Below, piece after piece: positions 6,405 through 54,800 of a stretch of DNA of 64,000 nt. The notes under the pieces are model-generated. The model was not told where the DNA came from and ran no database searches. It saw only the letters and a program-made list of their open reading frames with translations. This stretch comes from Verrucomicrobiales bacterium (lineage in GTDB: Bacteria; Verrucomicrobiota; Verrucomicrobiia; Limisphaerales; UBA11358): positions 372,001-436,000 of the forward strand of contig JAQTQB010000002.1 in NCBI GenBank assembly GCA_028712475.1. Direction: 5' to 3'. The first letter of the stretch is position 1. Each line of letters begins with the position of its first letter. A program made the translations under genes and the position numbers.

Positions 6405-8504
6405 TCATTTCCTGGCCCGTTTTGATTTTCGATAACTCACCGGCTTCGCTTCCGGCTTGCCGCCGTCAACGATCCGCTTGAGTTCCTTGATCTGGTCGCG
6501 GAGCAGCGCGGCTTTTTCAAAGTGCAAATCCTCGGCGGCCTTGAGCATCTCGCCTTCGAGTTCGCGGATGGTCTCGGTCACATCCACGTCCATTTTTGCG
6601 TCGTGCAAAACGGCATCGGCCTCCTCGCGCGTCGTCCGGTGAACCGCAAGGCTTGCCTCGACCGCGCGGACGACACTGCGGGGTGTGATATGGTGTTCCG
6701 TGTTGTAGGCGATCTGCCGGTTGCGGCGATATTCGGTGACGGCGAGAAATTTCTTGATGCTGTCCGTCATCACGTCGGCGTAAAGAATCACTTCGCCGTT
6801 CAAGTGACGTGCGGCGCGGCCGGAGGTCTGGATCAAACTGGTTTCGCTGCGGAGAAAACCTTCCTTGTCCGCGTCCAGAATCGCGACTAGCGAAACCTCT
6901 GGCAAATCCAGGCCTTCGCGCAACAGATTGATGCCGACGAGCACGTCGAACTCACCCTTGCGGAGCGAGCGAAGAATTTCCACGCGTTCGATGGCGTCAA
7001 TTTCGCTGTGGAGATATTGCACGCGGATGCCGATGTCCCGCAGGTAATCCGTGAGTTCTTCCGCCGTGCGCTTGGTCAAGGTGGTGACGAGCGTGCGCTC
7101 TTTTTTGTCGCCGCGCTTGCGGACTTCTTCCATCAAATCGTCAATCTGGCCTTTGAGCGGCTTGACGGTGACTTTTGGATCAATCAGTCCCGTCGGGCGC
7201 ACGACGAGTTCGACCACGCCGGGAATTTCTTGGTGGGGCGAGGCTCCTGGAGAGCCGTCGGTTTCGGCTCGCGGGGACGCTCGCCCCACCACAGCGCTCT
7301 GCCGTGACCATTCGATCTCGCGCGGCGAGGGCGTGGCGCTGACGTAAATCGTCTGGTTTTGCATGGATTGAAATTCCAGGAAATTCATCGGCCGGTTGTC
7401 CAGCGCGCTCGGCAAGCGGAAACCGTGATCCACCAGCACCGTCTTGCGCGACTTGTCGCCCTCATACATGCCGCCGATCTGCGAAACCGTGACGTGCGAT
7501 TCGTCCACGACGAGCAGATAATCCTTCGGGAAAAAATCAAACAACGTATTCGGCTGCGAACCGGGCTTGCGCGCGGCGATGTGGCGCGAATAATTTTCGA
7601 TGCCGGAACAGAAGCCCATCTCTTCCATCATCTCCAGGTCGTATTCCGTCCGCATCTTGATGCGCTGCGCTTCGAGCAGCTTGCCGTGCTTCTCGAAAAA
7701 CACGATGCGTTCGCGAAGTTCCTCGCGGATGCCGAGGATGGCATTTTTTAATTTGTCGCCGGTGGTGACGAATTGCTTGGCGGGAAAAATGGTAACGCCG
7801 GCAAGCGATTCAATTTTTTCCCCCGTCAACGGCTCGAAGCGGGTGAGGCGTTCGATGTCTTCGCCGAAAAACTCGACGCGCAGCGCATCTTCGCGGCCGG
7901 CGGGACAGATTTCCACCGTATCGCCGCGCACGCGGAACTGGCCGCGCTCAAAGGCGACGTCGTTGCGCGTGTATTGCAAATCCACGAGTCGCGAGAGCAG
8001 TTGTTCGCGCGAAATGCCGCCGCCGGCACGAAGCGGAATGATCATCTCCTCGTAATCCTCCTTGCTGCCGATGCCGTAGATGCACGAGACGCTGGCGACG
8101 ACGATCACATCGCGCCGCGAGAACAGCGAACTCATGGTCGAGAGCCGGAGGCGCTCGATCTCCTCGTTGATGCTGGAATCTTTTTCGATGAAGGTATCGG
8201 TGCGCGGGATGTAGGCTTCGGGCTGGTAATAATCGAAGTAGCTGACGAAGTATTCGACGGCGTTGTGTGGGAAAAAACTTTTGAACTCGGCGTAAAGCTG
8301 GGCGGCAAGCGTCTTGTTGTGGGAGATCACGAGCGTGGGCTTGTCCACGTTTCGGATGACATTCGCCACGGTAAACGTCTTGCCCGAACCGGTGACACCA
8401 CGCAGCGTCTGGGCTTTCGCGCCGGACAAAATTCCAGCGGTCAATTTCTCGATCGCCTGCGGCTGGTCGCCGGCGGGCGCGTAATCGGAGACGAGTTCAA
8501 ACAT
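6405..8504 (-). CDS. uvrB: Excinuclease ABC subunit B, with in-frame repeat insert
   Basis: A 699-residue helicase-like subunit of the UvrABC nucleotide excision repair complex, which verifies damage after loading by UvrA and recruits UvrC. Walker A is GVTGSGKT at residues 36-43. The damage-probing beta-hairpin region ([20 protein letters not shown]), the DESH box and helicase motif VI (QTSGRAARH) are present, and the C-terminus has the UVR domain that binds UvrC. Residues about 405-425 ([19 protein letters not shown]) have no counterpart in the family and are encoded by a palindromic element. They sit between [14 protein letters not shown] and the RPTGL block, in a position likely to be a loop. 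Confidence 0.97.
7232..7290. repeat. GGTGGGGCGAG palindromic element inside uvrB
   Basis: A 59-bp element bounded by GGTGGGGCGAG at 7232-7242 and its exact reverse complement CTCGCCCCACC at 7280-7290. It lies within uvrB and keeps the reading frame open. The same ends bound an insert in miaA at 38598-38690, and a degenerate version lies between genes at 49347-49413. Confidence 0.85.
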
Positions 8505-38016: not shown

Positions 38017-38077
38017 CAGAGGATTGAAGATGGCCAACACACCCGACATCCATCCTCCATCCTCCATCCTCCATCCG
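38017..38077. repeat. Tandem-word element (CCATCCT words) at lgt/miaA border
   Basis: GAGGATTGAAGATGG on the left and a run of four CATCCTC-type words on the right (38049-38073, with CCATCCTCCATCC visible). The right arm codes for MiaA residues HPPSSILHP, so the element supplies the first codons of miaA. Confidence 0.75.
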
Positions 38078-39046
38078 CGCCCCATTTTCATTGCCGGGCC
38101 GACCGCCGTGGGCAAATCCGAGGTCGCCCTGCGGCTCGCCGAACAGCTTGGCGGCGAAATCATCTCCGCCGATTCCATGCAGGTGTATCGCGGACTCGAC
38201 ATCGGCACGGCCAAGCCGTCGCCCGCCGAACGCGCCCGCGTGCCGCATCACCTCATAGACATCTGCGACCTGACCGAAGCCTTCGACGCCGCGCAATTCA
38301 TCCGGCTCGCGCAATCGGCCGTCACGGAAATCCAGGCGCGCGGGCATGTGCCGGTTTTCTGCGGCGGCACCGGGCTTTATTTCAAGGCGTTCTTGAGCGG
38401 ACTCGGCGAAGCGCCCGCCACCAACCCCGAACTCCGCGCCGAACTGGAAGCCGCGCCGTTCGAGGCGTTGCTGCACGAACTGCGCGAACGCGACCCGGTC
38501 GCCTACGAACAGATTGATAAACAAAATCCGCGCCGCGTCATCCGCGCCGTGGAAGTGATCCGGCTGACGGGAAAACCATTTTCCGCGCAGCGCGCCCGGT
38601 GGGGCGAGACTCGGTGGGGCGAGACTCCGTCGAGCCTTAATCCAAAAACGGAAGCCAAAAAGTCAGGGCTTGACGGAGCCTCGCCCCACCAACTTTATTG
38701 CCTCACTCGAGCATCTGCGGACATGCACGCGCGCATCAACGCGCGCGTGGACACGATGTTTACGCGCGGGCTGGTGGAGGAGACGCGCGCCTTGCTCCAG
38801 CACGGGCTCGCCGAAAACAAAACCGCGATGCAGGCCATCGGCTACCGGCAGGTGGTGGAATATCTGCGCGACCAACGCCCGCTGCCGGAAACGATTGAGC
38901 TGGTGAAAAGCCGCACGCGGCAGTTTGCCAAGCGGCAACTGACATGGTTCCGCCGCCACGGAAACATGGAATGGATTGAATTGAAGCCGGGCGATTCGCT
39001 GGAAACAGCCGCTGAAAATTTGCGGCGCAATCTTGACGCAGCTTGA
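38030..39046 (+). CDS. miaA: tRNA dimethylallyltransferase, with in-frame repeat insert
   Basis: A 338-residue enzyme that prenylates A37 of tRNAs reading UNN codons. P-loop GPTAVGKSE (about 21-29), ISADSMQVYRGLDIGTAKP, and GGTGLYFKAF are intact, as is the C-terminal FAKRQLTWFRRH. Residues about 190-221 (WGETRWGETPSS... ASPHQ) correspond to the palindromic element at 38598-38690. The N-terminal IHPPSSILHP also comes from a repeat. The C-terminus EWIELKPGDSLE is duplicated as an orphan tail after the toxin-antitoxin genes. AGAGGA precedes ATG 38030. Confidence 0.95.
   Translation: MANTPDIHPPSSILHPRPIFIAGPTAVGKSEVALRLAEQLGGEIISADSMQVYRGLDIGTAKPSPAERARVPHHLIDICDLTEAFDAAQFIRLAQSAVTEIQARGHVPVFCGGTGLYFKAFLSGLGEAPATNPELRAELEAAPFEALLHELRERDPVAYEQIDKQNPRRVIRAVEVIRLTGKPFSAQRARWGETRWGETPSSLNPKTEAKKSGLDGASPHQLYCLTRASADMHARINARVDTMFTRGLVEETRALLQHGLAENKTAMQAIGYRQVVEYLRDQRPLPETIELVKSRTRQFAKRQLTWFRRHGNMEWIELKPGDSLETAAENLRRNLDAA
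38598..38690. repeat. GGTGGGGCGAG palindromic element inside miaA
   Basis: A 93-bp (31-codon) in-frame element. GGTGGGGCGAG occurs at 38598-38608 and again at 38613-38623. CTCGCCCCACC closes it at 38680-38690. The second left arm and the right arm pair over 19 nt with one mismatch (GTGGGGCGAGACTCCGTC against the right arm from 38672). Confidence 0.9.
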
Positions 39047-39697: not shown

Positions 39698-39860
39698 TAG
39701 CCCACGGTGAAACCGTGGGTGAAATCGTCCAAAGAAATTCAAGCCCCGGCAGGGGCGGCAAAAATGTGTGAGAGGTTTTATCTGCGCCCCTGCCGGGGCT
39801 TGTGATTTTTATCGGCCTAAACCCACGGTTTCACCGTGGGCTATTATCTGCCGCGCCTCC
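39686..39860. repeat. REPIN-like nested palindrome, copy A
   Basis: Outer hairpins AGCCCACGGTGAAACCGTGG at 39699-39720 and its reverse complement at 39821-39842. Inner arms AAGCCCCGGCAGGGGCGGCA at 39741-39760 pair with 39784-39801. Ends carry GGAGC-type small hairpins (39681, 39850). It begins inside the miaA orphan tail. The DNA from 39861 to 39951 holds no gene I can support. Confidence 0.9.
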
Positions 39861-39951
39861 GGCGCTAAACGCGAACACGCCCATGACCGAAGATGCCCCA
39901 CGCGAACGCGGCAACGCCGAGAAACAATCTTAAAAAGCGGAGGGGCATAGT

Positions 39952-54476: not shown

Positions 54477-54532
54477 ATTTGGACGCTAGCCTTTCACTTT
54501 CACCGCGTCCAGTTTGATTTTTTCTGAAGCAC

Positions 54533-54720
54533 CGGAGGCGCGGCAGATAGTAGCCCACGGTGAAACCGTGGGTCAAAGACCACAAACCAACCAAGCCCCA
54601 TCAGGGGCGGCAGATAAAACCGTCCGTATATTTTCTGCCGCCCCTGCCGGGGCTTGAATCTCTTTTGCACGAGCATCCCACGGTTTCACCGTGGGCTACT
54701 ATCTTTCGTCGCTCCGCGAC
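54533..54720. repeat. REPIN-like nested palindrome, copy B
   Basis: AGCCCACGGTGAAACCGTGG at 54552-54573 and its reverse complement at 54677-54696. Inner arms AAGCCCCATCAGGGGCGGCA (54593-54612) and CTGCCGCCCCTGCCGGGGCT (54635-54654). GGAGGC at the left end and GCTCCGCGAC at the right. Confidence 0.92.
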
Positions 54721-54800
54721 TTCATTACGCCAATTCTTCATCGCGCACATTTTGAAAATTGATTCGCTTGCGGCGCAGGGGTTTTGCATATTCTCCCGCG

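Follow-up and report, generated by a model that had tools for sequence, protein, structure and literature searches.

A GTGG-tagged REP dimer inserted in frame in miaA of a Verrucomicrobiota genome, in a family that shares protein loops with other repeats

Results

The window analysed here is a stretch of 64,000 nt from a Verrucomicrobiales bacterium (GenBank accession number GCA_028712475.1, contig JAQTQB010000002.1), a soil-type member of the Verrucomicrobiota whose genome (G000) is 3.4 Mb and 98% complete. The miaA ORF (38030-39046, + strand), encoding tRNA isopentenyltransferase, was identified from the ORF list, Pfam and PDB relatives 2qgn, 3crm and 2zm5. Its closest named relatives come from metagenome-assembled genomes (MAGs) of Verrucomicrobia subdivision 3, Limisphaerales and Pedosphaera. 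CCATCCT-type heptamers (PDIHPPSSILHP) occupy positions 38049-38076 near the start codon, so the start of MiaA is uncertain. Within the ORF lies a repeat insert of 93 bp, or 31 codons (38598-38690, + strand), which keeps the frame, is free of stop codons and has the predicted translation WGETRWGETPSSLNPK. The IPPT domain (PF01715) spans MiaA residues 51-309 (E = 5e-82), right across the insert.

A direct-repeat search found that the first 15 bp of the insert (5 codons; GGTGGGGCGAGACTC; 38598-38612, + strand) duplicate the left end of the element in tandem, a feature missing from the further copies listed. What a sequence-only reading had called a doubled left arm is this duplication, and the element proper is therefore 78 bp long (38613-38690). 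Its left arm (38613-38636, + strand) consists of a GTGG tag at 38614-38617 and an imperfect hairpin, GGC(GA)GAC-TCC-GTC(GA)GCC, at 38618-38636; a variable spacer follows (38637-38666), and then the right arm (38667-38690, - strand), an inverted copy. The two 24-nt arms are 92% complementary, and the 78-mer folds with z = -6.35 against shuffled sequences. The coordinates, inverted arms and folding thus bear out the 31-codon in-frame insert that the same reading had described. The 11-mer GGTGGGGCGAG occurs in miaA at 38598-38608 (+), 38613-38623 (+) and 38680-38690 (-); with one mismatch allowed there are five sites in the window, against 1.5 expected, and no shuffle reached five.

A sister REP dimer of 59 bp (7232-7290, - strand) lies in frame in the uvrB ORF (6405-8504, - strand), which was recognised by its Pfam UvrB domains. 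It has the ends of the miaA element, as had been claimed, with GGTGGGGCGAG as an inverted pair at 7232/7280, and folds with z = -5.25 against shuffles. The further claim that both inserts are translated in the same style did not hold: miaA reads the element as RWGETPSS, and the uvrB copy is read in another codon phase.

The insert in MiaA falls in the loop that connects the TGKxFSxQR.xW helix to the strand after it, where length varies among species (30 loci of the genus). An AlphaFold model built with a 30-sequence alignment gave pLDDT values below 50 at residues 196-217 and mostly 85-98 elsewhere, so that the insert is predicted to form a disordered loop distant from the conserved blocks. 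In the relative G024 this site holds a decayed copy of the element, and in G022 it holds a decayed left half with a different palindrome after it. Other species fill this loop, in frame, with 7-bp tandem repeats (ACTCAAA, CATCACG or CCATCCT) or with other palindromes (loci L057-L083).

Stem pairs were counted in 161 readable arms from five genomes; all genomes compared are MAGs. The GTGG tag stands immediately 5' of the hairpin, and the full layout is GTGG, then GGC-GA-G-x1x2-loop-x2'x1'-C-GA-GCC, with a conserved tandem GA/GA mismatch in the stem. The x2 pair is C-G in 81 arms and G-C in 77, and the x1 pair is C-G in 63, A-T in 42 and purine-purine (G.A or A.G) in 52. The fold energy of a single arm is on par with shuffles, and support for the small hairpin comes from the C-G/G-C exchange at x2 rather than from energy. 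Arm subtypes depend on the genome: AC..GT and AG..CT account for 21 of 23 readable arms in G023 and for none in G022. The copies from the window's own genome, listed with their flanks, comprise full inverted pairs and lone arms. Each arm is thus a REP, that is, a hairpin-forming perfect or imperfect palindrome of 20-50 nt with a conserved 5' tetranucleotide and a high, dispersed copy number. The pair, two inverted REPs with a short spacer, is accordingly a REP dimer (REPIN), and the layout common to its copies suggests that it moves as a unit.

Exact GGTGGGGCGAG sites number 54 in the genome (25 + 29), against 0 + 3 for the reversed control. The element is thus a dispersed repeat, in agreement with the proposal that it is mobile or copied. 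It is enriched in many species of the genus, where a genome has anything between 0 and 199 exact sites, and some tens were counted in a few further families within the order. A GTAG family (CCGACTCACGTCGGCTGCTAC) has 72 copies in the window's own genome and 109 in G022. Two arrangements were seen in passing. Five near-identical dimers of the GGTGGGGCGAG family lie inside 1.5 kb of G022 (L196; C142:3131-4534), and at L010 (G000, C9:88326) a GTAG-family dimer comes straight after a GTGG arm (GTAGCAGCCGACGT...ACGTCGGCTGCTAC), so that the repeats adjoin or nest.

Frame was assessed in 102 near-intact dimers from this genome and four relatives (five species of the genus), using an in-phase oligomer model of coding sequence for the coding calls and a Pfam check on 30 host proteins. 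Forty-six dimers lie in frame inside genes (43 ORFs), two were called shifted, and 54 lie outside genes or at their edges. Among copies flanked by coding sequence on both sides, 46 of 48 are therefore in frame (P = 6e-20 at an expectation of 1/3). At most two copies are out of frame, and one of these two reads as intergenic, between hypC and hypD by ORF reading. These counts answer the questions raised by the sequence-only reading: the element is tolerated in unrelated proteins, it keeps the frame far more often than one time in three, and copies exist both inside and outside genes. With about 45% of the dimers intragenic and a coding density in the window of about 84%, genes are nevertheless under-represented as sites. 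REPs are usually mostly extragenic, and with 46 of 102 dimers in genes this family does not clearly fit that pattern.

Copy lengths modulo 3 (0/1/2) are distributed 18/3/25 in genes and 10/13/33 elsewhere (p = 0.013), and the in-frame copies use all three codon phases (21, 16 and 9). A length tuned to keep the frame was considered and rejected: lengths of 2 modulo 3 make up 25 of the 46 in-frame copies and 33 of the 56 others, and being common inside and outside genes they are a family trait rather than an adaptation to coding. A conserved encoded peptide was likewise rejected, given the three codon phases in use. As lengths of 0, 1 and 2 modulo 3 all occur, the frame can be kept without any dedicated feature of the element; selection against frameshifts suffices, and purifying selection is the probable cause of the bias. 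Among the 102 copies no target-site duplication was found, terminal direct repeats (1-8 bp) being no more frequent than in shuffled sequence; the outward flanks favour R-A-A.

Hosts were assigned from Pfam, and names finer than the Pfam family are an interpretive reading. In the window's own genome they are PdxJ, a GKRP-type SIS-domain protein, 2-phosphosulpholactate phosphatase, NadE, a helicase, a DUF58 protein, a GcvT-like protein, PrmC, RecN, an RNA pseudouridine synthase, biotin ligase (BirA), an inositol phosphatase, UvrB and MiaA. In the relatives they include PheT, PanC, an RsmB-type methyltransferase, a PurL-type synthase, leucyl-tRNA synthetase (LeuS), RibD, UvrA, a MutY-like glycosylase, DNA polymerase III alpha (DnaE), an HflX-type GTPase and MoeA. 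Pfam domains are still recognisable on either side of the inserts in housekeeping hosts, namely PdxJ, NadE, PrmC, RecN, BirA, UvrB, MiaA, PheT, PanC, LeuS, PurL, DnaE and UvrA. Because many of the hosts are normally essential, we infer that the insert-bearing proteins are translated and very probably functional.

Hosts that carry inserts in different species often do so at the same position, with exact sharing at 62-87% protein identity. Fourteen host segments from the window's genome were searched in five relatives and aligned, giving 52 orthologue comparisons in a sample conditioned on an insert in this genome and not in the relatives. An insert of at least 8 residues lay within 12 residues of our site in 38 of the 52, against four indels of at least 8 residues elsewhere in the flanking segments of about 140 residues. 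The GGTGGGGCGAG family accounts for about one quarter to one third of the 38 shared sites. At others the occupant is a GTAG REP (as in UvrB of G022 and G031 and in RecN of G021), a GTAGGACAGGC dimer (PrmC of G031), a GGAGCGCCGG dimer (the GcvT-like protein of G021) or an in-frame heptamer tandem repeat (ACTCAAA, CATCACG, AATCCAG or CCATCCT; loci including L212, L217, L221 and L248). The loops that hold inserts vary in length even where no element is present.

These shared positions could also have been inherited from a single entry in the ancestor of the genus, with gene conversion since keeping the arms of each genome uniform. Exact sharing between species and the decayed miaA copies in G024 and G022 are what such descent would leave, and 2 of 12 shared pairs are fairly alike (ranks 3/36 and 4/23). 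Overall, however, two copies of one family at a shared site resemble each other about as much as random copies drawn from their two genomes (ranks from 3/36 to 22/36, orthologous copies falling in the mid-range), and their arm subtypes often differ. Many orthologous sites hold unrelated families, beyond what gene conversion produces, and BirA has its insert in this genome while the site is empty in five relatives. We therefore consider vertical inheritance unlikely as the general account, although it is the strongest of the alternatives. Given this mid-range likeness of the copies at shared sites, the loops appear to be recurrent landing pads that are reused, and not simply carriers of old insertions. 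Reuse may be passive, if few loops accept inserts, or guided.

A search of 58 Y1 loci (8 in this genome and 50 from 12 others) found no Y1 gene framed by the element. At a few of these loci a copy lies no more than about 1.2 kb away; two such copies read as lying inside genes, one for a squalene/phytoene synthase-like protein (L098) and one for RibD (L100). RAYT-like genes associated with other REP families do occur. One RAYT gene of the window's own genome (L052) has a GGAGCGCCGG hairpin alongside. As none of the RAYT genes examined carries the element at its borders, mobilisation by a RAYT in trans is a putative route. The lack of target-site duplication fits HUH enzymes and not DDE transposons.

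Two further observations concern neighbouring repeat families. In G031 (L349, C115), a RAYT-like gene of 260 aa lies between GTAG/GTGG-tagged hairpins with ATTCCT-type loops, which are similar to the dimer that occupies the PrmC loop in G031. In an Rfam scan of the window the only matches were to tRNAs and Acido-Lenti-1 RNA, with none at 38598-38690 or 7232-7290. The Acido-Lenti-1 matches (window positions 39822-39866, +; 54528-54572, -; 54677-54721, +) are hairpins with a GTAG-like tag, and in L046 of the same genome they bracket the gene for a 151-aa Y1 transposase (1398-1443 and 1983-2028). Acido-Lenti-1 here resembles a REP, or else one end of an IS200-like element, more than an sRNA.

Discussion

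We regard it as highly probable that the miaA insert is a REPIN in a permissive MiaA loop, filtered by selection, in a genus where such loops are refilled by different families. Two inverted GTGG-tagged palindromes with a short spacer would have landed in a MiaA surface loop able to accommodate additional residues, by single-strand transposition of the RAYT/IS200-like kind or by copying. Selection would remove insertions that shift the frame or hit structured parts of the protein, so that the surviving intragenic copies are in frame and confined to a limited set of permissive loops. These loops would then be refilled repeatedly, species by species, by different palindromic or short tandem repeat families. 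The 31 extra residues of MiaA are predicted to be translated as a disordered loop with no specific function.

Inserts could instead be retained for a function, as RNA hairpins, as DNA gyrase or IHF-type sites, or as useful protein loops. Ends and stems are intact in genes, and many hosts are repair, translation and nucleotide enzymes, a tendency read from the host list itself rather than against a genome background; Di Nocera et al. (PMC3733652) also state that intragenic REPs are biased to such hosts. Yet the use of three codon phases leaves no conserved peptide, the spacers are unrelated, and in related species many sites are without the element or occupied by another family. Selection for function is accordingly improbable. 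Least probable is a conventional MITE bounded by terminal inverted repeats and mobilised by a DDE transposase, which the 24-nt inverted repeats, short length and high copy number would suit, but which the lack of 1-8 bp target-site duplications above chance in 102 copies, the lone arms and the hairpin with a compensating pair in each arm oppose.

REP dimers inside ORFs are known already, and the miaA insert joins a kind described by Di Nocera et al. (2013; PMC3733652). That report describes GTAG-tagged REPs, single and dimeric, in ORFs, chiefly of Opitutus terrae and Rickettsia conorii. GTAG-20 of O. terrae, also a member of the Verrucomicrobiota, mostly bears GTGG. The intragenic REPs of that report add 20-30 residues to uvrA, ligase, helicases and other hosts. 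Set beside this text description, our element shares with GTAG-20 the GTGG tag, a comparable hairpin size, dimers with variable spacers and insertion into ORFs, including the same kinds of host. It differs in that Opitutus belongs to another order of the phylum, that about 45% of the sampled dimers here are intragenic, and that shared sites and frame statistics cover many genes. A single instance of distinct REPs at roughly one position, recB in two Xanthomonas, is noted by Di Nocera et al. and is a further likeness. With respect to the parts of the report considered here, what is added is how large the in-frame bias is and how often unrelated families reuse the same loops.

The element resembles REPINs and their RAYTs (PMC3116915, PMC8049555) in its two inverted REPs with a spacer and its many copies, although no cognate RAYT was found next to a copy. 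In E. coli, a bulge in the REP stem is required for TnpAREP activity (PMC8266576); the stem of our element is likewise imperfect, and its conserved tandem mismatch recalls that bulge. Rickettsia palindromic elements, as summarised in PMC3733652, are also in-frame palindromes in many unrelated genes, uvrB among them. They belong to another phylum, and the likeness is one of behaviour, drawn from their description rather than from their sequences.

Conclusions

Earlier reports of intragenic REPs are mostly lists. A genus of many species with tens to hundreds of copies each is a natural experiment for asking where proteins accept 15-35 extra residues, how strong selection on the frame is, and if selfish repeats settle in one another's sites. 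In the genomes sampled here, the frame is almost always kept and other families refill the same loops. More tentatively, we raise the possibility of shared docking loops, in which unrelated REP and short-tandem-repeat families would replace each other at the same codons, perhaps guided by the resident REP, so that REP populations may turn over inside essential genes while the function of those genes is kept.
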